A stretch of 24,776 bases of DNA, from positions 1-24,776 of IMG/VR virus record IMGVR_UViG_3300037119_003876. One strand, 5' to 3'. The position numbers and the translations under genes are program-made. The stretch's first letter is position 1; every line of letters starts with the position of its first letter. Shown here piece by piece: positions 466 to 15,055 of the stretch. Below the pieces are notes generated by a model. The model was not told where the DNA came from. It ran no database searches and saw only the letters and a program-made list of their open reading frames with translations. The DNA is from a virus.

Positions 466-606
466 CTACCCTCCAGTCAGCTTAAATAGTAAGTAACAAT
501 TATTGGCGAACAGGCTAATAAACGCTATCGTCGCCAGTAATACCACCAAGATCCATTTCTTCATGCTCTCAGTATCTCTCACGCCGTGTTTTAGTGTGTA
601 GTTCAT
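466..606 (-). CDS. Small membrane protein, 46 aa
   Basis: The start codon overlaps the TGA of the hexapeptide-repeat gene (ATGA). After about 16 polar and basic residues there is a hydrophobic segment of about 20 residues beginning at MKKWILVVLL, which can be a membrane anchor or signal anchor. An internal ATG at this segment could also serve as a start. The gene ends inside the ribosome binding site of the next gene. One membrane span is the only property that can be supported. Confidence 0.6.
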   Translation of the reverse strand: MNYTLKHGVRDTESMKKWILVVLLATIAFISLFANNCYLLFKLTGG

Positions 607-1391
607 GAGTTTTTGGTGTTGCCTTTCAAAAGATCTAGTAGCTCATCGACCCACGCTAGGACTTGTTTTGCCACTGGGTTAGTTTTAGGCGTATCTCCAG
701 TAGCAATCCCCATGAAATAAGCTTCAGCAGGACGGTCGCTGTCTGGGGAGATGCCACCAAGTTCTGTATAACTACATTTTCGTACGTTTGCTATCGTACC
801 ACAGAGACAGGCGCACTCTCCCTCATATACAGAGCCATTTACTTTACCATCAACGATAGCTTTCCGCAGTGCTGGGATCTCAGGTATGGCGTGTAGCAGT
901 AGCTCCCACAGATCGGCTTTTATCAGGGAATAGGATACGGAGACCTGTGCTTTGCCGGAGACCCGTGCTTTGCCGGAGACCCGTGCTTCGCCGAAGACCC
1001 GTGCTTCGCCGGAGACCCGTGCTTCGTCGGAGACCCATGCTTTGCCGGAGACCTGTGCTTCGCCGAAGACCCATGCTTCGCCGAAGACCCATGCTTCGCC
1101 GAAGACCCGTGCTTCGCCGGAGACCCGTGCTTCGTCGGAGACCCATGCTTTGCCGGAGACCTGTGCTTCGCCGAAGACCCATGCTTCGCCGAAGACCCAT
1201 GCTTTGCCGGAGACCTGTGCTTCGCCGGAGACCCGTGCTTCGCCGAAGACCCAGCCCCCTACAGAACCTTTTTTAATAGTTTCTCCTCCGCCCGTTTCAA
1301 AGTCTATGGTTGCTTTTAGCCGAAACAGTTTTACGCCGAGCCAATTCACCTGACTCTCAGATGTTAATTTGAAGTATGATTTAGTTGCCAT
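603..1391 (-). CDS. Hexapeptide-repeat (left-handed beta-helix-like) phage protein
   Basis: The 262-residue protein has three parts. Residues 1-43 are a unique N-terminal segment ([13 protein letters not shown]). Residues about 44-152 are about 17 tandem six-residue units of the form (A)xVxG(E/K/D), with V and A at fixed positions, as expected for a left-handed parallel beta-helix. Residues about 153-262 are a C-terminal domain with a Cys-containing [14 protein letters not shown] segment and a [13 protein letters not shown] segment. This repeat plus C-terminal domain combination is recurrent in phage and prophage proteins of unknown function. Start is at a TAATG overlap with the 108-aa gene, with an AAAGGG site upstream. 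The repeat DNA is nearly identical between units, which suggests recent expansion or ongoing length change. A structural or binding scaffold role is inference. Confidence 0.85.
941..1252 (-). repeat. 18-bp tandem repeat array with a 108-bp higher-order period
   Basis: About 17 units of 18 bp encode the hexapeptides of the beta-helix protein. Units differ at a few positions (gcttcgccgaagacc, gctttgccggagacc, gcttcgtcggagacc read on the plus strand). The block starting at 1021 recurs at 1129 for several units, exactly 108 bp (six units) later, so the array grew at least once by duplication of a multi-unit block. Because 18 is divisible by 3, other frames are also open and repetitive here; these are shadows. 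Confidence 0.95.
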
Positions 1392-1737: not shown

Positions 1738-2367
1738 TTAATTACGGTCTTCGGGCGGTGTTTGATCCATGTCCTCCAATACAGCTTTGGCGCTGAATGC
1801 CTTAACTAAGTTAATAGCGTCCTCAGCCTCGTCCTCACGGATGTTGCCAGGGTACTTGCCGGTGATGTTCTGCAGAGTTTTAATGATGTCCTCAGCTTTG
1901 GACAGCTCGGGGTATATTTCCTTAACAGCTCCGATGAGCCGAGTTTTCTGCTGTGCCGTTGCCAGCCGGTGCTCTTTGGCGTCATTATCGTCATCGGGGA
2001 TCAACCCTAGCATAGCAGTGAGCATATACCGTCTATAGTAAGTAATGGCCGCACCGATAGCTTGGGGATCGTCCCTTTGTAAAACCATCTGCATGGTTTC
2101 TGTTATCCATTCACCACTCTCGATATGGTAGAGAGTGGTTTCAAAGAATTGCCCCATAGACTGATCGCCTGTCGTTGGTGAAGCTACTACCACCAAGCCA
2201 TTCTTCTGCATGAGAGCGCCTACAGCGTCCCAGGTTGAGTTTAAATTGGCATAGGCGTATTCGCGGCTGCCGACCTGACCTTTGGCCGTCTTAGCTATCT
2301 GCCCGGCGCTCTGCTGGACGTTTTGGATGGCAGCCATCAGGTTTTTGACTGATTCAGATTTTTTCAT
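1738..2367 (-). CDS. erf: ERF-family single-strand annealing protein
   Basis: The protein (209 aa) belongs to the ERF superfamily of phage recombinases, which bind single-stranded DNA and anneal complementary strands during phage replication and repair, without ATP. Visible family signatures are YAYANL near residue 37 in a typical ERF N-terminal block, a TTLYHIESGEW strand near 77-87, QAIGAAITYYRRYML at 102-116, and the acidic DDDNDA at 125-130. The C-terminal 70 residues are helical and charged, the usual region of partner binding. Length is normal for the family. Start ATG overlaps the stop of the upstream 60-aa gene (ATGA), so translation is coupled. Confidence 0.93.
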   Translation of the reverse strand: MKKSESVKNLMAAIQNVQQSAGQIAKTAKGQVGSREYAYANLNSTWDAVGALMQKNGLVVVASPTTGDQSMGQFFETTLYHIESGEWITETMQMVLQRDDPQAIGAAITYYRRYMLTAMLGLIPDDDNDAKEHRLATAQQKTRLIGAVKEIYPELSKAEDIIKTLQNITGKYPGNIREDEAEDAINLVKAFSAKAVLEDMDQTPPEDRN

Positions 2368-5223: not shown

Positions 5224-5664
5224 ATGTCAAAGCTACAGCCTAAACGGCTTTCTCCTGATGAAATTGAATTTGTAAAAGCTAAGGTAGCCGGTAAGTCAGA
5301 TAGGCAAGCGACTAAGGTAGCCAAGCCTAACCTGAGTGAATCATCATTAGGTAAGGTTGCTAATAGGTTGTCAACGAATGTCAATATCCAAGAGGAAATA
5401 GCTAAAGCTTTTGAGCGTAAGGGCATAACAATTGATAAAGCCGTGCAACCAATTGCCGATGGGTTAGAGGCTACAAAAACAATAGTCATGGGGAAAGAAT
5501 CTAACGAGTCGTTCGTGGATATTGTACCTGACCATCCTACTAGACTTAAGGCCGCTGGCATGGCTTTTAATTTGATGGGTGCTGGCCGAGTTGAGGCAGG
5601 GGCAACAACAATTAACAACTTCATAGTCATTGCAGGACAGGATAAAGATGCCTACGGTCTATGA
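5224..5664 (+). CDS. terS: Probable small terminase subunit
   Basis: The 146-residue protein lies directly before the large terminase and overlaps its start, the normal place for the DNA-recognition subunit of the packaging motor. The N-terminal part (SPDEIEFVKAKVAGKSDRQA) reads as a helix-turn-helix with a following helix containing NVNIQEEIAKAFERKGI, as in many phage small terminases. The C-terminal part is less conserved, with an acidic segment. The ATG at 5224 is preferred over one six codons upstream, although neither has a Shine-Dalgarno. Assignment rests on position and HTH-like pattern. Confidence 0.75.
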   Translation: MSKLQPKRLSPDEIEFVKAKVAGKSDRQATKVAKPNLSESSLGKVANRLSTNVNIQEEIAKAFERKGITIDKAVQPIADGLEATKTIVMGKESNESFVDIVPDHPTRLKAAGMAFNLMGAGRVEAGATTINNFIVIAGQDKDAYGL

Positions 5665-6466
5665 GCCCTATAAGCGGTTTATAGAAGATCGCCTCACTAT
5701 TATAAATAAGCAGGGCATTGAAGTGCCGTTCATACTCAACAAAGCCCAGGACTATGTTGTGGATAATGGAACTGGCAGAGACTTCACACTAAAGGCTAGA
5801 CAAGAGGGTATATCGGCTTTTGAGTTAGCTGTGTTTGCCACGGACTTTTTGTTAAAAGAAAACTCCACTAGTGTAGTTGTTGCTGACAACGCAGATAATG
5901 CCCAAGGTCTTCTAGAGCGTGTTAAATGGTATATATCTAGCTATGAACGTAATACAGGCACCAAGGTTCCATTCAAGTACAATTCTAAGTATGAGCTTCG
6001 TAACGAAGCAAACAACTCCCAGTACATTATAGGTACAGCCCAGAACGTTGAAGTTGGCCGGTCACGAACTATTACTAATGCACATTTGTCTGAGGGTTTG
6101 TTCTACCCACACTTTAGAAAACTGCTAGCCTCTTTGTTGCAAGCCGTGGTGCCTGGTGGCAAGGTTATGATTGAGTCAACGGCCAACGGCTTTAATGAGG
6201 GCAAAGAGTTTTGGGATGAAACGATGTTAGGTATCACTGGGTTTAACCCTATCTTTCTCCCAGCCAATCTTATGTATGACCAGGCTTTTCTAGCTGCTAA
6301 ACTTGGTGAATTAGGCGAGAGATTGTTTAAGCAAGAGTACCCAAATAGCGCCGAGGAAGCGTTTATAACCTCTGGCGCAACATACATAGACAACCTAGCT
6401 ATTGCTCGGTTGCTCGATCAAGTTAAGCGTTGGGAACTAAATCACCAGAGGCCAATCAGTGTTTAA
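5648..6466 (+). CDS. terL: Large terminase, ATPase part (split gene)
   Basis: This ORF carries the ATPase half of the packaging motor. Visible motifs, counting from ATG 5648, are a Walker-A-like KARQEGIS at 49-56, the Walker B end HLSE with catalytic Glu149, the coupling motif IESTANG at 175-181, and the FKQEYPNSAEEAF block near 227-239 that in intact large terminases precedes the nuclease domain. It stops at 6466 after RPISV, exactly at the linker to the nuclease. The next ORF overlaps by eight bases in the +1 frame. The total of 272 + 223 residues is the normal length of an intact protein. A TTG six codons upstream is a possible alternative start; AGGA before the ATG favours 5648. Confidence 0.93.
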   Translation: MPTVYEPYKRFIEDRLTIINKQGIEVPFILNKAQDYVVDNGTGRDFTLKARQEGISAFELAVFATDFLLKENSTSVVVADNADNAQGLLERVKWYISSYERNTGTKVPFKYNSKYELRNEANNSQYIIGTAQNVEVGRSRTITNAHLSEGLFYPHFRKLLASLLQAVVPGGKVMIESTANGFNEGKEFWDETMLGITGFNPIFLPANLMYDQAFLAAKLGELGERLFKQEYPNSAEEAFITSGATYIDNLAIARLLDQVKRWELNHQRPISV

Positions 6467-7130
6467 ACGTTTTAGAGCGTTCCAACAAAATGAGTTCATT
6501 GTGGCCTTTGCCGACTTGTCTATGGGCGGTGCGGATAACACAGCCGTACAGTTTCTATCAGCAAAATGGCTAGACCAACCCCAAGTCTTTCACGCCCACG
6601 TTACAGGCTCCTACATGACCCCGTTATTGCACGAGGAGCTTACCAGAATATCTGTTGAGACTGGCGTTAAGCCTGTCGTAGCCTTTGAAAGGAACAACGG
6701 CGGTGGCTTTGAAATGGATAGGTTAGCCCGGCTTAATAGGTATGGTGATTATGAGATTTATACCATGAAAGCCGTTGACCCAACTGGCCGGGTTGTTGAT
6801 ACCGGGAAACTGGGGTTTGACACAAATCTAGCCACCAGACCTAAAATGCTCCAAGAGCTTAAGGATGCTATTGAGAGCGACTTATTGCATCTATACCATA
6901 GACAAACTGTTAGCGAGCTCTTCAGTTTCATAATTAAACCTAACGGTCGTCCAGAAGCAGAAGATAGCGCACATGATGATCTGGTTATGGCTTTAGCTGG
7001 TGCTTGGCAACTGTACCAGAGTGAGAAGCCACGCAAAGATCAAGGCAGCTCAGTAATTGAAACCTCTAATCATGATGGACAATACAAGGAAGCTGGTATA
7101 TTAGTAGCGGAAGAAGAGTTTTATGCTTGA
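6459..7130 (+). CDS. terL: Large terminase, nuclease part (split gene)
   Basis: This ORF holds the RNase H-like nuclease domain that cuts the DNA concatemer during packaging. The acidic residues are present: Asp19 in ADLSMGG, Glu77 in VAFERNN, and Asp173/Asp174 in AHDDLVMALA; a DTNLATRPKM segment also fits the family. It starts with GTG, with AGAGG seven bases upstream, inside the end of the ATPase ORF. It could be made as a separate chain by coupled initiation or as a fusion by +1 frameshifting at GTT TAA A (6461-6467). All catalytic motifs are intact, so this is not decay. Confidence 0.92.
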   Translation: MFKRFRAFQQNEFIVAFADLSMGGADNTAVQFLSAKWLDQPQVFHAHVTGSYMTPLLHEELTRISVETGVKPVVAFERNNGGGFEMDRLARLNRYGDYEIYTMKAVDPTGRVVDTGKLGFDTNLATRPKMLQELKDAIESDLLHLYHRQTVSELFSFIIKPNGRPEAEDSAHDDLVMALAGAWQLYQSEKPRKDQGSSVIETSNHDGQYKEAGILVAEEEFYA

Positions 7131-8105: not shown

Positions 8106-8121
8106 ACAGCTATACAGCTAT
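8106..8121 (+). repeat. Perfect 8-bp tandem duplication in the GroES leader
   Basis: ACAGCTAT is present twice in tandem (8106-8113 and 8114-8121), directly after AAGGAG. The second copy ends in the start ATG. The duplication lengthens the Shine-Dalgarno to ATG gap from about 6 to about 14 bases, which would be expected to weaken translation of the co-chaperonin. Confidence 0.85.
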
Positions 8122-8452
8122 GAAAACCAAACCTCTAAATAATAATGTACTGATTGAAGTAATGACTGAGCATTCAGGGGTCAGTCAGGCTAGCAGTGAT
8201 GGTTCGCCGGTCACAATGAATTTTGGAAAGCTGATTGACTTTTCAATTGTCAAGTTCCATCTTACTGCCTCAGCCTCTGCGTATCTTGAGGACGATTTCC
8301 TTAATAATTTGCGAGACGAGCTTACTAAAATGAAAGGTGGGATTGTTCGTTGGGAAGAATTCGCTGAGGGCGGCCAGACATTTGAGGAAGATGGTAAGAC
8401 ATACGCATTAATTCCCTGGTGGAGACTCATCGGGTATAAGGAGACAGAATGA
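8120..8452 (+). CDS. groES: GroES-like co-chaperonin
   Basis: The 110-residue protein shows the fold pattern of the 10-kDa co-chaperonin, the heptameric lid of GroEL. KPLNNNVLIEV (residues 4-14) matches the first beta strand (compare RPLHDRVIV in E. coli), GKLIDFS (36-42) matches the GEVLAVG strand, and KGGIVRWEEF with KTYALIPWWRLIGY (72-106) matches VGDIVIF and the final strands. Residues about 15-33 correspond to the mobile loop that contacts GroEL. The loop lacks the hydrophobic Ile-Val-Leu triplet seen in GroES. The roof region is replaced by about 30 residues (44-71), helical in part. The GroEL gene lies 254 bases downstream. Identification is by motif pattern and neighbour. Confidence 0.82.
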   Translation: MKTKPLNNNVLIEVMTEHSGVSQASSDGSPVTMNFGKLIDFSIVKFHLTASASAYLEDDFLNNLRDELTKMKGGIVRWEEFAEGGQTFEEDGKTYALIPWWRLIGYKETE

Positions 8453-8709
8453 CCAAGAAAACTAACCCCGAACCAGAAGAGAAAACATTTAGCCTCAAAG
8501 ACATCGAATTGCAGATGGTGCAGAACATGCACAACCGAGCTAATCAAAGTCTATTCGATTTCTTTAGCTTCATTGCTTTGGAACGTTTAGCCTACACAGT
8601 TACTGAGCACACTCGGTTTAGAGTTGAAGATGGCAAAATGTTTATTAGCGAAGTTGAGCCACCCGAAGCTAACGGCGAACCAGCCAATGATGGAGTGTCT
8701 GTAGCATGA
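8449..8709 (+). CDS. Unknown protein between the co-chaperonin and chaperonin genes, 86 aa
   Basis: It overlaps both neighbours by four bases (ATGA at both ends), so it is made with them. The sequence has an acidic, proline-rich start, a central amphipathic helix (LKDIELQMVQNMHNRANQ), a hydrophobic patch (FDFFSFIALERLAYTV) and an acidic end. No known family recognised. A role as substrate adaptor, chaperonin modulator or early head protein is possible from its place, but nothing in the sequence proves it. Confidence 0.7.
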   Translation: MTKKTNPEPEEKTFSLKDIELQMVQNMHNRANQSLFDFFSFIALERLAYTVTEHTRFRVEDGKMFISEVEPPEANGEPANDGVSVA

Positions 8710-10271
8710 GTGAAATGCCAAAACGAGACATCAAGAACTTAATACTAGGTGACGAAGCTCGATCTAAGCTGGCTGAGGGTGCTCGTAAAATGTACGAGAT
8801 TGTCAGCACGACCTATGGCCCAGCCGGGTACAACGTAATCCTTGGTATGCCAGCAGACTTTGACTCAACTTTAACCCGAGATGGCGTGACCGTAGCCAAA
8901 CGTGTTAGCCTCCCAGATAAGGCAGAAAACGATGGCGCACAAATACTCCGTCAAGCCTCCGAAAAGACTAACAAGACTGCTGGAGATGGTACGACTGCCA
9001 CTATCGTGCTTGGCTATCATCTGTTCAATCGAGGTAATCGCTTGGTTGCTGCTGGCGAGAATGGGATGCTTTTAAAGAAGCAGATTACTCAGGACAGTCA
9101 GAAAGTGATAGACTTTTTAAATGAACAATCCGAAGATGCCACAAACCACCTTTTGGAAGTTGCTACTGTGTCTGCTGGCGATCCTGCTGTTGGTGCGTTA
9201 GTCAGCGACACGCTTAAAGAGATCGGTAATGAGGGTGGCATCAGTATCCGAGAGCAGAACTACCCGACTGTGGACGTGGAAAAGGTTAATGGCTACTATT
9301 TCGACAAAGGCTTCCAGATTCTTAATCAGCCGGTGGATATTGCGAGTCCCTTGATTTTTGTCACTCAGAAGCAACTCAATGCTAACACGGACATCGTACC
9401 CTTATTAAGCCAGGTAATTAATGGGGAAAATAAGAACCTTGTCATTATTGGCGAAGTACGGCCTAACTCTGATGCCTGGAATACTTTGATGCTTAACCTC
9501 ATGCAACAGAAGATTAACGCTATAGTGATTCCACCTCCCGCCTACAATGATGATGGTCAACTGTTCATGGAAGACATAGCTCTATATGTTGGCTCTAAAC
9601 TATTTCTTAATGGTGATGACCCGAAGAAGATTCTGCCTGAGCATTTTGGTACCGCCGAGCGAGTGAAAGTAAACCAAGACGAGGCCATTATCTTTAAGGG
9701 CGGTGGCGATAGTGATGAGATTTCTACCCGTGCCTCACAGATCCAAACTACTATTGAAAAAGAAACTGACAGTCACCGTAAAGATACTTTGGAGCAACGT
9801 TACTCCAAACTTACTGGTAAGATTGCTATCGTGAATGTCGGTGGCTCTACACCTACTGAAATGGAGGAGCTACGCTACAGAGTCGAGGATGCTATTGAAG
9901 CGACCAAGAGCGCTATGGCTGATGGTGTGCTACCTGGTGGCGCTACGATGCTAGTGAGAGCCTTAGAACTAGACATCTCCAAGCTCTACAAAGACGCCCT
10001 TAAAGATACGTTCCGTAAGCTCATGGAGAATGCCGCTGAGCCTGCTGATTACAGGCTGGAACAAGTACATCGGGCCAAGCCTGGATTTGGCTTTAACCTG
10101 CGTGATCTCTCGGAGGAACCTATTGATCTCAAGAAAGCCGGTGTTTGGGACGCTACCCGAGCCGTGATACAGACTATTGAAAACGCTACTAGTGCTGCCG
10201 CATCCTTATTGATTTCGGGTGCTATAATTGATCCTATAGACAAGGAACAAGATGATAAAACGATTGCTTAA
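8706..10271 (+). CDS. groEL: GroEL-like group I chaperonin
   Basis: The 521-residue protein covers the whole chaperonin: equatorial (about 1-145 and 405-521), intermediate, and apical (about 195-375) domains. The ATP motif AGDGTTAT (92-99) includes Asp94 (Asp87 of E. coli). Asp395 in RVEDAIEAT matches catalytic Asp398, Asp482 in VWDATRAV matches Asp495, and Asp59 in LTRDGV matches Asp52. Hydrophobic residues of the apical GroES and substrate-binding helices are kept (DIVPLLSQV, NTLMLNLM). It is slightly shorter than E. coli GroEL (548) and lacks the Gly-Met-rich tail. It would fold proteins in an ATP-driven cage, with the GroES-like partner encoded upstream. Sited between terminase and portal, it likely serves virion proteins. 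Strong divergence, such as IPPPAY instead of KAPGF, indicates a phage lineage and not a recent host copy. Confidence 0.95.
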   Translation: MSEMPKRDIKNLILGDEARSKLAEGARKMYEIVSTTYGPAGYNVILGMPADFDSTLTRDGVTVAKRVSLPDKAENDGAQILRQASEKTNKTAGDGTTATIVLGYHLFNRGNRLVAAGENGMLLKKQITQDSQKVIDFLNEQSEDATNHLLEVATVSAGDPAVGALVSDTLKEIGNEGGISIREQNYPTVDVEKVNGYYFDKGFQILNQPVDIASPLIFVTQKQLNANTDIVPLLSQVINGENKNLVIIGEVRPNSDAWNTLMLNLMQQKINAIVIPPPAYNDDGQLFMEDIALYVGSKLFLNGDDPKKILPEHFGTAERVKVNQDEAIIFKGGGDSDEISTRASQIQTTIEKETDSHRKDTLEQRYSKLTGKIAIVNVGGSTPTEMEELRYRVEDAIEATKSAMADGVLPGGATMLVRALELDISKLYKDALKDTFRKLMENAAEPADYRLEQVHRAKPGFGFNLRDLSEEPIDLKKAGVWDATRAVIQTIENATSAAASLLISGAIIDPIDKEQDDKTIA

Positions 10272-10440
10272 AAATTGGTTAGGGGTTACCGGGCTAGAAC
10301 GTGCTGTATGGGGAGGTCAGGCAAGAGAAGTGGATAAGATTCTCACCTCAGATATACTAAAGGCTCGTATTATAGAGCCAGAAGACCACGAACCAATAAT
10401 CGTAGAGAAGCCAGTTGTCAAAGGTTATGTCTCTAAATGA
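10252..10440 (+). CDS. Small basic protein, 62 aa, overlapping groEL end
   Basis: The ATG lies within the last seven codons of the chaperonin gene, with AAGGA just upstream. The product starts MIKRLLKNWLGVTGLERAVW, a basic amphipathic segment, then becomes acidic. Phage proteins of this kind often sit before the portal. Function is not known. Confidence 0.6.
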   Translation: MIKRLLKNWLGVTGLERAVWGGQAREVDKILTSDILKARIIEPEDHEPIIVEKPVVKGYVSK

Positions 10441-10618
10441 TGAGCTTTTAAGTGACGATCCTGATTCATTAGCTGTTGAAGCTGACGATGATGATATACA
10501 ATTTACCCCTGAACCAGACGAAGATAGCGGAGTAGTTTCCATTGAGCCAGACATCATCAGTATCAAAAGAGCCGAGCGCAAACGAGCTTTGCGAGCGCTG
10601 CCACCAGAACAAAAGTAG
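10427..10618 (+). CDS. Small acidic protein, 63 aa
   Basis: Very acidic (a DDDD run and many E), with a short basic C-terminus (KRAERKRALRAL). The ATG at 10427 follows AAAGG closely; a TTG at 10415 is an alternative. It overlaps the previous gene by 14 bases and the next by 77. The acidic body might mimic DNA or bind a basic partner, which is inference. Confidence 0.55.
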   Translation: MSLNDELLSDDPDSLAVEADDDDIQFTPEPDEDSGVVSIEPDIISIKRAERKRALRALPPEQK

Positions 10619-10859
10619 CATTGGCGTTGTCATTCAGGGTGTGTATTACAAGCTTTGTATGGCTTGCAAGCCGTTGCCTAAAGTCAGCTCAGGACATGCG
10701 AGGTGGAGCCGGAGCATTGACTTAGAAGATCATGAAGCTGATGTCCAGCAACCGTATGGAGCAGACGGAAAACCTAACGCTACGTTCGTAAAACTTTATC
10801 CCAAGCAAGCCAGTGCCGTATTCAGCGATGAGCAAATAAAAGATATTCTCCGAAGCTAA
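10542..10859 (+). CDS. Small zinc-ribbon-like protein, 105 aa
   Basis: CERC (residues 17-20) and CMAC (38-41) form a CxxC-N17-CxxC pair, typical of a zinc ribbon. The rest is polar. The TTG at 10542 is the only start that keeps both cysteine pairs; GGAG lies about nine bases upstream. The frame lies +1 to the 63-aa gene, which it overlaps, so a frameshift fusion cannot be excluded, but both have their own start signals. Function unknown. Confidence 0.65.
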   Translation: MSQTSSVSKEPSANELCERCHQNKSSIGVVIQGVYYKLCMACKPLPKVSSGHARWSRSIDLEDHEADVQQPYGADGKPNATFVKLYPKQASAVFSDEQIKDILRS

Positions 10860-10890: not shown

Positions 10891-12912
10891 ATGCAGCCAC
10901 AAGATACAACTCCTAAAGTCTTTAATGTCGATAATATGACCGATGTTGATTTCGGTGACCTTGTAAAACGACGAGCTGAAGAATCTGAGGGGCACTGGAA
11001 TAAGAGCCAGAAGCTCAAGACTGTCCGGGCTGAGAACACTAAAGATTACCTCGCTAAATACGTCGAGGATCAGCTTATAGACGGACGCTATCAAGAAGTC
11101 TACGTCGATAACCGCCAGTTCGTCTCTGTTCGTACCATTTTACCTTTTCTGACCGCTCGTATTACTGCCCCTGAAGTTATCCCAGCTTCAAGTAAAGATT
11201 TGGCTATTCAGTTCGCTGATGACTTTGAGCAAGTATTACAATTGCATGCCGAACGGCAGCAGGGTCGCCCAAAGATACGCCTAGCTGTCCAAGACCTACT
11301 GAAAGGCGAACGCATCGGCATACTCATGTGGCGCTTTGATAAAGCTACCAACACGCTTGTACTAGAGCATGTACCGCCAGGCATTATAACTATCGGCAAA
11401 CGCTCCAAATATCTTGAGGAGCCTGACTTCCTACGCCATCCTATAGAGCGCTCCGTCGGCGACCTGATAACTATGTTCCCAGAGAAAAAGACTGTCATTC
11501 TTAAATTGTTTAACCTGTCTGCCGAGACAGACCCGACACTTGAAGAGCTTGACCGAGTAAAGACCATTAATATGGACTGGGTATGGGTTGTACTTGATGG
11601 CAAAAAGCAACTCCTAGTAGGTTTTAGTTATCAAAATACCGTCTTTGGCAAGATGAAAGATCCAAACTGGGATGAGGGTGGCGATAACATTACCGACCAG
11701 CCCATGATGCCATATATCTTTTATAACTTCCTGAATGACGGTAAGGGCTGGATTGATGAGACTTCGTTTATGGAACAGGCCCATCACTCGCAGGTCAACT
11801 ACAACAAACGTGGCCAGACAATCGCTGAGAACGCTAAATACGGCGGTACCGGCGTCCCTATCTTCGCTAAGGGTGCGATTAACCAAAAAGACGTAGCCAA
11901 AATTCGGTTCAGCCCGATCCAGCGGATCTTATTGGATTCAACTGACCTAACTAAGTCTTTTACTACTTGGCAGGCCCAGGCCTTACCGCAGTATATTTTT
12001 GAGGATAAGACTAACCTGGCTGAATCCATAGACAATATCTGGGCTGCCAATGCCGTACTTCGAGGGCAGCAATCCGAGAACAAGACAGCTACTCAGGATC
12101 TTTTGAATCGCAATCAAGCCGAGGGCCGAATGGCTGACCCTGTGGATTGTATTGACGATTCGATGACACGCTTCTATCTCTTGGAAGCCCAACTTATGTA
12201 CCGTTACTTTGATAAAGAGAAGTATTATAACTATAAGGGCAATGATGGAAATTTCGTCAGTGCTGTAGTCTCCTCTAAGGACATCGCCAAGAACCTGGGC
12301 ATTCACATTACGGTCAGAGCTGGCACCAGTTTGCCTTTGGATAGGGCCCAGCGGCGAGCTACTGTGATGGAGCTATTAAAGCTTAACAAAGTTGGAACCC
12401 TAACTGCGTATAAAGAACTCGGTGTGTTTGACGATCCAGAAGAAGCCTACAAACAATACGTTATGGAGCAACTTGATCCTAAAGCTTCTCTTGAGGAAGT
12501 TGATAAACAGGTCTTTGACCGTGAAGCTAATGAGGATATCCAGATTGTACTTGGCGGTGGTATACCTGATGAGCGTGAAGATATCACCCCAGAATATGTG
12601 AACTACCTGAACGAATGGCTGTTGACTGATAAATTTAAGTTGCTCCAAGAAAAGAAAGCCTCCACAGCCGCTAGACTGTCTCAGTTTATTGACGGTATTT
12701 TAGCTAAGGCCCAGCGCAAAGCCGACAAGCTAGCGCTCCAGCCAGCTCCTGATGCATCCGTAAGTCCTCTGGCCGCAATGGGTGCCGCCCAGCCACCAGT
12801 CGGGCCGCCTCAGCCTGGACAGCCCCCCCAAGCGCCTCCACAATTCCCCAGCGCTCAGCCCCAGCCACCAGCACCGACAGCTGGTGTTGTCCCCAGTAGT
12901 CCTGTACAATAA
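10891..12912 (+). CDS. Portal protein
   Basis: The 673-residue protein is the probable dodecameric portal through which DNA enters and leaves the head. It follows the terminase and precedes the scaffold and capsid. The sequence features are typical: an N-terminal helical region, a central alpha/beta body (YVDNRQFVSVRTILPFLTAR near 71-90; LEHVPPGIITIGKRSKYLEE), a long helical stretch corresponding to the stem and clip, and a C-terminal tail from about residue 622 that is almost all proline, glutamine and alanine. Length is in the range for large portals. The ATG lacks a Shine-Dalgarno. A Mu-like or T4-like subgroup cannot be chosen from sequence alone. Confidence 0.85.
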   Translation: MQPQDTTPKVFNVDNMTDVDFGDLVKRRAEESEGHWNKSQKLKTVRAENTKDYLAKYVEDQLIDGRYQEVYVDNRQFVSVRTILPFLTARITAPEVIPASSKDLAIQFADDFEQVLQLHAERQQGRPKIRLAVQDLLKGERIGILMWRFDKATNTLVLEHVPPGIITIGKRSKYLEEPDFLRHPIERSVGDLITMFPEKKTVILKLFNLSAETDPTLEELDRVKTINMDWVWVVLDGKKQLLVGFSYQNTVFGKMKDPNWDEGGDNITDQPMMPYIFYNFLNDGKGWIDETSFMEQAHHSQVNYNKRGQTIAENAKYGGTGVPIFAKGAINQKDVAKIRFSPIQRILLDSTDLTKSFTTWQAQALPQYIFEDKTNLAESIDNIWAANAVLRGQQSENKTATQDLLNRNQAEGRMADPVDCIDDSMTRFYLLEAQLMYRYFDKEKYYNYKGNDGNFVSAVVSSKDIAKNLGIHITVRAGTSLPLDRAQRRATVMELLKLNKVGTLTAYKELGVFDDPEEAYKQYVMEQLDPKASLEEVDKQVFDREANEDIQIVLGGGIPDEREDITPEYVNYLNEWLLTDKFKLLQEKKASTAARLSQFIDGILAKAQRKADKLALQPAPDASVSPLAAMGAAQPPVGPPQPGQPPQAPPQFPSAQPQPPAPTAGVVPSSPVQ

Positions 12913-12934: not shown

Positions 12935-13900
12935 ATGGATGAAAACGGTTCACCAACCAGTCCAGCGCCAGAAGCAACTGAAAGCACCACAACGCCAAGT
13001 TATGAAAGTAGCAACGATTTAGATTTTGAAATGAGTCCTGAGCAAGAGCAGGACTTTGTTAATAAAACCTTGGGTATCACTGACCCAAGCGTGGAGGCAC
13101 CGAAAGATGATAACCCAACAAATGCTCCAAAACCTGACGGAACTGGAGAAGAGCCAGAAACGCCACCAACTCCTAAAGAGCCGCAAGTTACGCCACCTGA
13201 ACAACCAGCACCTGCGGCAGTTAAACCGCCAGAGGCTCCAGAACCAGTTGTTGCGCCGGTCGAGCAAGCTGGTGTCGATACCTCCGACCTCTGGATTGAA
13301 GTCGAGAACGCCGACGGCACCCCAGTAAAGATCACCCTCGATGGTGGCCTCCCTGAGGATTTCCAGTTTAAGAGCGACAAACAGCTCTATGAAGTCATGG
13401 AATCTATGCAGGAAATGAAAAACCTACAGGCCGAGCGTGAGGCAGATTTTGAAGCCAAGAATGAGCAGCAATTGGCTCAGCAGTCCCAAGACGCCCAGCT
13501 AACCACTTGGGAATCAGAAACCCAGACTTTAATAGATGCTGGTCTCATCCCAGAACCGAAACTCAAATCTCCAGCAAACGGCAAGCAGTTCACTCCTGAG
13601 GAAGTAGAAGCCGACCCCTCTCTTAAATTACAGAATGAAGTGTACACTTTCATGAAGTCAGAAAATGACAAGCGTATTGGCGAGGGCAAGCCGCCAATTA
13701 TGTCATTTGGCACGATGTTCAATGTCTATCAGCAACAGCAAAAGAATGATGCCGAAGCTAAGGCCAAGGAAGAAGAGGCTAAACTTACCAAAGAGCGTGG
13801 AGCTTTGATAGGTGGGACTTCGGCTGCCAGCGGTGGTGAGAAATCTGCCTACGTTGCAGGTAGTCATGCCAATATTTGGAGCGTCCCAGTCGAAACTTGA
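12935..13900 (+). CDS. Probable scaffolding protein
   Basis: The 321-residue protein lies between portal and major capsid, the classical position of the internal scaffold that guides capsid shell assembly. It is acidic; residues about 40-115 are proline-rich and disordered, a helical segment rich in E, Q and M follows (about 145-185), and there is a charged helix near 265-290 (QKNDAEAKAKEEEAKL). The C-terminus (about 295-321) is less charged and may bind capsid subunits. The ATG follows TTTAGGAG. A weak -10 (TACAAT, 12905-12910) in the end of the portal gene may add transcription. Not cleaved visibly: no protease motif is seen. Confidence 0.8.
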   Translation: MDENGSPTSPAPEATESTTTPSYESSNDLDFEMSPEQEQDFVNKTLGITDPSVEAPKDDNPTNAPKPDGTGEEPETPPTPKEPQVTPPEQPAPAAVKPPEAPEPVVAPVEQAGVDTSDLWIEVENADGTPVKITLDGGLPEDFQFKSDKQLYEVMESMQEMKNLQAEREADFEAKNEQQLAQQSQDAQLTTWESETQTLIDAGLIPEPKLKSPANGKQFTPEEVEADPSLKLQNEVYTFMKSENDKRIGEGKPPIMSFGTMFNVYQQQQKNDAEAKAKEEEAKLTKERGALIGGTSAASGGEKSAYVAGSHANIWSVPVET

Positions 13901-13914
13901 CATTTTAAAATCCT

Positions 13915-13920
13915 TATAGT
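13915..13920 (+). promoter_or_regulatory. Possible -10 element before the capsid gene
   Basis: TATAGT preceded by a TTGACA (13897-13902), but with only 12 bases between, well short of the normal 16-18. Weak. It is listed because a hairpin terminator follows, as at other promoter sites here. Confidence 0.3.
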
Positions 13921-13934
13921 AAGGTGAAGATAAC

Positions 13935-13962
13935 AACCGCCCGGTTTTCTGGGCGGTTTTAT
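13935..13962 (+). terminator. Intrinsic terminator between scaffold and major capsid genes
   Basis: Perfect 8-bp stem AACCGCCC (13935-13942) with GGGCGGTT (13951-13958), loop GGTTTTCT, followed by TTTTATTTATT. It may reduce read-through from the scaffold message or act as a 5' hairpin of capsid mRNA. Confidence 0.85.
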
Positions 13963-13987
13963 TTATTAGAAAATTAAGGAGCATATT

Positions 13988-15055
13988 TTGGACTACAGCA
14001 GGCTTATCGCAACAACTAGTCAAAGCGTCGCACCCTACGTTGTCGATGCAATCCACGGTTCCAGCGTCCTGGTTGGGCGAACCACTGGTAGCCGTGTTAA
14101 ACCTTGGGAGATGGGTATCTACGAAAAGCAACCCATTCAAGTTAGCGATATTACGACCGCTATCGACTTCCAAGGTATTGGCAACTTTAACACTGCCGAT
14201 AACACCACTGACGTCAACTTGCAGTGGGAAGCTAAGGGTCTGGGCGACTCTGTCATCATCGGATACGCTGAGCTTGGTCTGAATCAAACTAAAGCCCAGG
14301 TTATTAACCTTGTTAAGCGCAAATTCGACGTTGTCAAGAATAGCCTGGTTGCTGCTTCTGGCACTCGTTTCTACGGTCTCGGCGCTGGTGCGGCTATCGA
14401 GGGTCTACAGCTTTCAACTGACGCTGGTACCTACAGTTCTAGCTATGGTGCATTAAGCCGCACGACCTACGGTACAGCAATTAATGGTCAGGTCACGGCC
14501 GCCGCCGGTGGAGTAATTTCCTTTAACTCAGTTGCCGCACAGATGGATCTTTGCTCAGCTGCCGCTTCCGCTACTGACTCCACCAATCTCCTGCTAACTA
14601 CTAAGACAATCTGGGCTTTGCTTGAGAAACTGGTAGAATCCAAGAGCCGTGGTAACTACGATACTTCTCGTGGCAACCTGCGTGTCTCGCCATACACTCC
14701 GATGGGCGTAGCTTTAGAAGCCAAGCAAGTTGGTGTTGGTGGTTACGAAAGTATCTACTTCCGTGGCGTCCCAGCCGTTAAGGATGATCAGTGTGCTTCT
14801 GGTCTCATGTACACCCTAAACGAGAACTACCTAGAATTCGTTAGCTCAAACATCGCTTACTGTGATAACATCACCATGAAGCAGACTGTTACCAAGGGCT
14901 CCTTAGAAGATGTCGTTACTACCGCATGGCAGGTTTCCAAAGAAGCCAAGCCAACCAATGGCCTCGGTGATGTCCGCCAAATCGCCATCTATGGCAACTA
15001 TGTCAATCGTAACCCATTCCGTTCAGGTGTCGTAACCGGAATTACAACCACTTAA
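13988..15055 (+). CDS. Major capsid protein
   Basis: The 355-residue protein directly follows the scaffold gene and is the best candidate for the shell subunit. It starts at TTG with AAGGAG six bases upstream. It is rich in Ala, Gly, Ser, Thr and has the strand and helix pattern expected of the HK97 fold: a long N-terminal arm, a spine-helix-like segment (LNQTKAQVINLVKRKFDVVKNSL, about 98-120, with Lys and Arg), an A-domain with LLTTKTIWALLEKLVESKSR, and a late DNITMKQTVTKGSLEDVVTTAW. No protease or delta-domain signal is seen. HK97 fold is inferred from pattern and position, not from a search. Confidence 0.85.
   Translation: MDYSRLIATTSQSVAPYVVDAIHGSSVLVGRTTGSRVKPWEMGIYEKQPIQVSDITTAIDFQGIGNFNTADNTTDVNLQWEAKGLGDSVIIGYAELGLNQTKAQVINLVKRKFDVVKNSLVAASGTRFYGLGAGAAIEGLQLSTDAGTYSSSYGALSRTTYGTAINGQVTAAAGGVISFNSVAAQMDLCSAAASATDSTNLLLTTKTIWALLEKLVESKSRGNYDTSRGNLRVSPYTPMGVALEAKQVGVGGYESIYFRGVPAVKDDQCASGLMYTLNENYLEFVSSNIAYCDNITMKQTVTKGSLEDVVTTAWQVSKEAKPTNGLGDVRQIAIYGNYVNRNPFRSGVVTGITTT

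Follow-up and report, generated by a model that had tools for sequence, protein, structure and literature searches.

Phage T4 encodes gp31, a lid of the cpn10 fold that serves capsid folding; its partner is the GroEL of the host, and T4 has no GroEL of its own. Pseudomonas phages EL and OBP and Bacillus phage AR9, all jumbo phages, encode divergent GroEL-like proteins, and these chaperonins work without a co-chaperonin (PMC9598537, PMC7185714). In vitro, the chaperonins of EL and AR9 act on the endolysin of their own phage (PMC9598537). Other phages are known to encode GroES together with GroEL, as stated in PMC7185714 with reference to Marine 2017. PMC9611531, referring to the same study, gives a tendency of GroEL-carrying viruses to have genomes of >70 kb. 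Clear exceptions to this tendency are the complete 38.8-kb TM7 phage DolZOral124_53_65 and the 39-kb MW202566. The locus described here resembles T4 in encoding a lid of the cpn10 fold that may serve capsid folding, and resembles EL, OBP and AR9 in encoding a divergent GroEL-like protein.

Annotated pairs of groES and groEL occur, as here, in Flavobacterium phages immuto and elemo and in Caudoviricetes MW202828. A pair is also present in MW202566, and MW202497 has a groEL between terminase and portal, again as here. However, the GroELs of these phages and of MW202566 belong to other or uncertain lineages, and immuto GroEL keeps the canonical Y203/F204, unlike the GroEL studied here. Cellulophaga phage phi38:1 (NC_021796) has the same order of Cpn10, a small ORF (90 aa) and GroEL, but its GroEL is ~28% identical and its neighbours include exonuclease and resolvase genes. 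Its small ORF, considered as a relative of the 86-aa protein at the equal position, proved unrelated by profile search. The closest likeness by major capsid protein (MCP) among named phages is to TM7 phage DolZOral124_53_65 (MG269973, locus L014), a phage of Saccharibacteria (TM7), with 36% identity in the MCP, 27% in the portal and a GroEL of shared lineage. In that phage, a distant GroES-like ORF (E 7e-4) lies directly 5' of Cpn60, and a homologue of a CxxC protein follows Cpn60. Unlike the pair described here, the TM7 pair is on the strand opposite the head genes and away from the portal, its GroES is unannotated, and the apical loop of its GroEL is full length but has other residues.

Since phage GroES and GroEL pairs are already known, we regard the present pair as a new, divergent version of a known kind, from a host group that is unusual for it. 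It is set apart by a lid-barrel contact that has changed, by the host group, by complete relatives of small size and by its close linkage with head genes.

Gene layout and conservation of the locus

The window, the whole stretch of DNA analysed, is the 24,776-base IMG/VR virus record IMGVR_UViG_3300037119_003876, which has linear ends and is possibly a fragment. It is read with the usual genetic code, and no code change is necessary. The preliminary description, made from sequence alone, had located a GroES/GroEL pair, encoded by the phage itself, among the head genes. The three ORFs it named are present (Table 1), and they are chained by ATGA overlaps as it said, at 8449-8452 between the GroES-like and 86-aa ORFs and at 8706-8709 between the 86-aa and GroEL ORFs. 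The trio does lie between the terminase genes and the portal gene. The pair itself is upheld by the family matches, the cpn10 fold and the conserved linkage.

Table 1. Features of the window discussed in the text, with positions and the basis of each assignment.
Feature	Position	Strand	Basis
Terminase large subunit, ATPase part	5630..6466	+	phrog_2 1.2e-11
Terminase large subunit, nuclease part, separate ORF	6459..7130	+	phrog_24361 3e-11
GroES/Cpn10-like co-chaperonin, 110 aa	8120..8452	+	AF2 model, Foldseek and VIA, hhalign, bridge homologue, alignment
Conserved 86-aa protein between GroES and GroEL	8449..8709	+	Alignment of 10, AF2 pLDDT 80
GroEL/Cpn60-like chaperonin, 521 aa	8706..10271	+	Pfam, PHROG, residue map, trees
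62-aa ORF overlapping GroEL 3' end	10252..10440	+	ORF list
Small conserved acidic protein, motif L-x-x-D-P-D-S-x-A-V-E-A-D	10415..10618	+	Profiles over relatives
105-aa CxxC protein, 'EDHE.D.QQPY..DG..N..F..LYP'	10542..10859	+	Profiles over relatives
Portal protein	10891..12912	+	phrog_156 1.5e-14
Scaffold-like acidic protein	12935..13900	+	Position and composition only; Pfam/PHROG without notable match
Terminator-like hairpin in the gap from scaffold to MCP gene	13935..13958	+	
Major capsid protein (MCP)	13988..15055	+	phrog_9953 1.4e-29

Gene order was surveyed by running a profile of each neighbour over all loci. The order is CxxC protein, GroES, 86-aa protein, GroEL, small acidic protein, CxxC protein, portal and MCP. 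As far as the contigs extend, it is kept in the window and in L003-L008, L010-L012, L056 and L057, which are ten further IMG/VR contigs and an eleventh, L008, that ends before GroEL. Conservation across these contigs indicates that the arrangement is not due to chance. Identity to the window among the relatives is 70-88% for the MCP, 52-59% for GroES and 63-72% for most GroELs, falling to 52-56% for the GroELs of L056 and L057. A lid gene adjoins every family GroEL found. The distant relatives L013, L060, L063 and L014 (the TM7 phage) keep GroES-GroEL and the downstream CxxC homologue even with other head genes elsewhere, and the homologue of the 105-aa CxxC protein follows GroEL in L062 as well as in these four.

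The chaperonin genes had also been assigned beforehand to a separate late transcription unit, a claim that the analysis does not support. The gaps from terminase to scaffold are <=41 nt and mostly overlaps, promoter-like sites that could indicate a separate chaperonin promoter show no excess (14 versus 17.7 in shuffles), and in relative L004 GroES starts ~11 nt past the preceding gene. The terminator-like hairpin lies between the scaffold and MCP genes and does not flank the chaperonin genes; hairpins with T-runs are found at the equal place in L003, L004, L010, L011, L012, L017 and L056. From the small gaps, the promoter counts and the position of the hairpin, it follows that the chaperonin genes are part of one gene run that starts with terminase and ends with scaffold, and that the MCP gene lies behind the hairpin. 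Within window 13890-13990, the hairpin sits just 5' of the MCP ribosome site. Promoter-like hexamers are seen by eye just upstream of it (TTGACA-17-TAAGGT in the window, TTGCAT-17-TATATT in L056), and the MCP mRNA may therefore begin with the hairpin. An Rfam search of the window gave 0 matches.

Identity of the barrel and the lid

Judged by sequence comparison, the 521-aa protein is a chaperonin of the Cpn60/GroEL family with an intact ATP site. It matches PF00118 (Cpn60) with E 3e-39 and 135.5 bits (cut-off 34.3), and phrog_5725 'chaperonin groEL' with 6.5e-106 over residues 10-508. Residues kept, in E. coli numbering, are T30, G32, P33, D52, G53, D87, G88, T89, T90, D398, G414, G415 and D495. 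The ATP-site aspartates noted in the preliminary description are thus all present in the alignment, the equivalents of D52, D87, D398 and D495 each being Asp. Other parts of the protein are altered. The inter-ring contact residues of GroEL are changed in the window protein, neither the R197-E386 nor the D83-K327 bridge is retained in the phage family GroELs, and the GGM C-terminal tail is missing in the phage clade and present in Patescibacteria cellular GroELs. Given the changes in the inter-ring contact and in both bridges, the cycle may differ from that of GroEL, with a single ring or with a lid that is unnecessary, as in EL, OBP and AR9.

The 110-aa protein had nothing relevant by sequence alone in Pfam, PHROGs or the PDB (hmmsearch), and for this reason its fold and bridge homologues were used. 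An AlphaFold (AF2) model, built from 11 sequences only, has pLDDT 80 and pTM 0.72. Cpn10 was the top match in a Foldseek comparison of the model with the PDB (best E 2.1e-4, probability 1.00), and 31 of the best 34 rows named cpn10/GroES chains, the other three being chains of 7ekq. Re-alignment with VIA gave Z 9.2 and rmsd 4.8 over 86 residues for 1p3h_A (M. tuberculosis cpn10) and Z 7.8 and rmsd 3.6 over 83 residues for T4 gp31; beyond cpn10, the best-scoring fold class reached only Z 5.2. The modelled protein therefore adopts the cpn10 fold, as its description as GroES-like implied. A sequence link is provided by a homologue in L013, directly 5' of the L013 GroEL, that is 31% identical (tblastn 5e-5). 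It reaches 40.4 bits against the Pfam profile of Cpn10, where the cut-off is 21.1; the window protein itself does not match this profile. In hhalign, the profile of the 110-aa family, with the L013 bridge left out, aligned end to end with cellular Cpn10 (E 3e-6, probability 88%). The probability stayed <0.4% for each of five neighbouring families, which served as negative controls. Taken from the model, the bridge homologue and the profile comparison, the 110-aa protein is a lid of the Cpn10/GroES type. The model also has a predicted flexible loop: residues 18-24 are the only ones with pLDDT <50, and they connect strands one and two, which is the place of the GroES mobile loop. By alignment and model, the roof segment of the lid is swapped for an insert of ~35 aa with a conserved H-x-T-A-S.

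Proposed clients and the lid-barrel contact

The reading we favour, and consider fairly probable, is a private phage folding machine of lid and barrel, with head proteins as the most likely client. The phage would supply barrel and lid alike. In this view, the 521-aa protein would form an ATP-driven ring chamber, the 110-aa protein would cap it as a ring, and the client would fold inside; the adjoining head proteins (major capsid, portal, scaffold or terminase) are the most likely candidates. Ring assembly of both proteins is presumed. Gene linkage suggests head proteins as clients, though the TM7 phage has its pair on the strand opposite its head genes.

It is possible, although we think it less probable, that the pair is a real folding machine whose main clients are other than head proteins, such as endolysin, tail fibres or stressed host proteins. 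The in vitro action of the EL and AR9 chaperonins on endolysin is in keeping with this, as is the placement of the TM7 pair away from the portal. In the window family, however, the pair is always between terminase and portal, and the TM7 pair is just ~2 kb away from the MCP gene. On account of this proximity, head proteins are the more probable clients.

The contact between lid and barrel is changed on both sides. In E. coli, the mobile loop of GroES engages the apical groove of GroEL through I25 and L27, and I25A or L27A lowers the affinity for GroEL >1,000-fold (PMC5575113). The lid tripeptide aligned to IVL is G-V-S in the window and most relatives, with charged residues flanking. Variants are LVS in L007, AVS in L006, GVI in L056 and GLA in L057, and the bridge L013 has A-V-V. 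On the barrel side, the apical substrate and GroES site was compared at E. coli Y199, Y203, F204, L234, L237, L259, V263 and V264. The segment with Y203/F204 is absent in all nine tabulated family GroELs, and positions 199, 234 and 264 are substituted in the window protein. The tabulated cellular GroELs of Patescibacteria keep Y203 and have F or M at 204. The pair therefore departs from the canonical one in the hydrophobic IVL-type tripeptide of the lid and in the apical site and GGM tail of the barrel.

The simplest reading of these alignments is that lid and barrel have changed together and form a private pair. The two proteins would have co-evolved, with a latch lacking the large hydrophobics for ordinary GroEL and a barrel lacking part of the matching groove, so that the phage lid should fail on host GroEL. 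Phage lid and phage barrel would then bind each other, and their pairing may be exclusive. The loss of Y203/F204 and IVL could instead signal that the interaction is weakened or gone. A bolder version of the private pair, which we regard as tentative and doubtful, is an orthogonal chaperonin: the contact would be co-changed, host GroES and GroEL ignored and the 86-aa protein a third working part, with an MCP-like small ORF behind GroEL in some relatives as a possible client mimic or regulator. Mutual binding of the altered latch and groove would make the pair an orthogonal chaperonin of natural origin, with which lid-barrel recognition could be dissected.

It is also conceivable, but unlikely, that the 521-aa protein needs no lid and functions as one open ring or two, as do the chaperonins of EL, OBP and AR9, which need no co-chaperonin. 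The 110-aa protein would then have another target, or would serve host GroEL in the way of T4 gp31. The changes in the canonical GroES-binding and inter-ring residues of the 521-aa protein agree with a barrel of this kind. Against it, the lid gene stands beside every family GroEL and both partners are changed at their contact, while use of host GroEL in the manner of gp31 is at odds with a lid that lacks the I25/L27-type residues required by canonical GroEL.

Descent, probable host and neighbouring genes

The descent of the GroEL was analysed in a tree of 49 GroELs (LG+C20, 549 columns). The 11 GroELs of the window family group with their five closest phage relatives in a single clade, with support of 100/99; the window GroEL thus falls in a deep phage clade and not inside one recent bacterial clade, the placement that would have spoken against the preliminary description. 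The phage clade joins a divergent Patescibacteria cellular GroEL (L047), itself in a canonical groES-groEL operon, and branches among Patescibacteria, not among the few other bacteria sampled. A tree keeping cellular Patescibacteria apart was weakly rejected (AU p 0.02), and the exact place among Patescibacteria GroELs calls for caution because of long branches. An old, phage-specific descent of the pair is supported by the tree. Recent capture of a host groESL operon as passenger genes with no special role is very improbable, as bacteria and some plasmids do have groES-groEL operons in equal order but the window GroEL has ~30% identity to the compared GroELs outside its deep, 100/99 phage clade, and its ATP residues and linkage are conserved over many contigs. 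A single common origin of phage chaperonins was considered separately, and was dropped since a clade of all phage GroELs was rejected (AU p 2e-60).

Patescibacteria are tiny, parasitic epibionts with small genomes; to our knowledge, their phages are hardly known. The virus of the window is probably a phage of Patescibacteria, a view taken from the relatives of its MCP and portal and the placement of its GroEL. Among 50,697 phage records, MCP and portal matches were found only in TM7 phage DolZOral124_53_65 and in MW202566, whose host is unknown. An MCP scan of 84,980 prokaryote species, each represented by a single genome, confirmed two contigs, in a Woesebacteria and a Berkelbacteria MAG, both Patescibacteria; an earlier genome scan with a narrow MCP alignment had found 0, and the broader alignment gave both. 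The MCP was present in 1 of 380 sampled Patescibacteria genomes (the same Woesebacteria), which indicates that carriage is rare and makes the host evidence consistent but thin. Of 59 sampled Patescibacteria genomes, 53 have their own GroEL, so the need for a phage pair is not obvious. That a phage with a genome of possibly 40 kb would devote ~2 kb to a folding machine, though the host group usually has GroEL, raises the question of why host chaperonins would not suffice.

The 86-aa protein has a predicted fold of a long helix and a beta hairpin; a PDB fold search gave no match and PHROG matches were marginal only. Weak homologues beyond the family occur in L013 and L060, where they lie 3' of the CxxC-protein gene and not between GroES and GroEL.

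In two relatives, the small ORF directly behind GroEL contains segments that match the MCP profile, at L004:3935-4396 (33.1 bits) and L006:5272-5532 (18.5 bits), against a best of 5.7 (L004) and 4.0 (L006) in 1,000 shuffles each. One example is GFEAIYYKGVPVERD versus MCP GYESIYFRGVPAVKD. In the L004 ORF, a second MCP-like stretch comes next, in permuted order. The equivalent 62-aa ORF of the window has no MCP-like segments by the same profile.

Elsewhere in the window, a repeat protein at 603-1391 (-) consists of GEAxVSGxAxVFGEA repeats, which account for the long antisense ORFs open there, and matches phrog_7964 and phrog_5070 of unknown function (1.6e-40). An Erf-like ssDNA annealing protein (phrog_155, 1e-30) is encoded at 1738-2367 (-), upstream of the late genes. 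Two ORFs that overlap by 8 nt (window 5630-7130) share the large terminase between them, one for the ATPase and one for the nuclease. The split is shared by L003-L008, L010 and L012, and the halves are separated in L006 by an ORF that resembles an HNH endonuclease.
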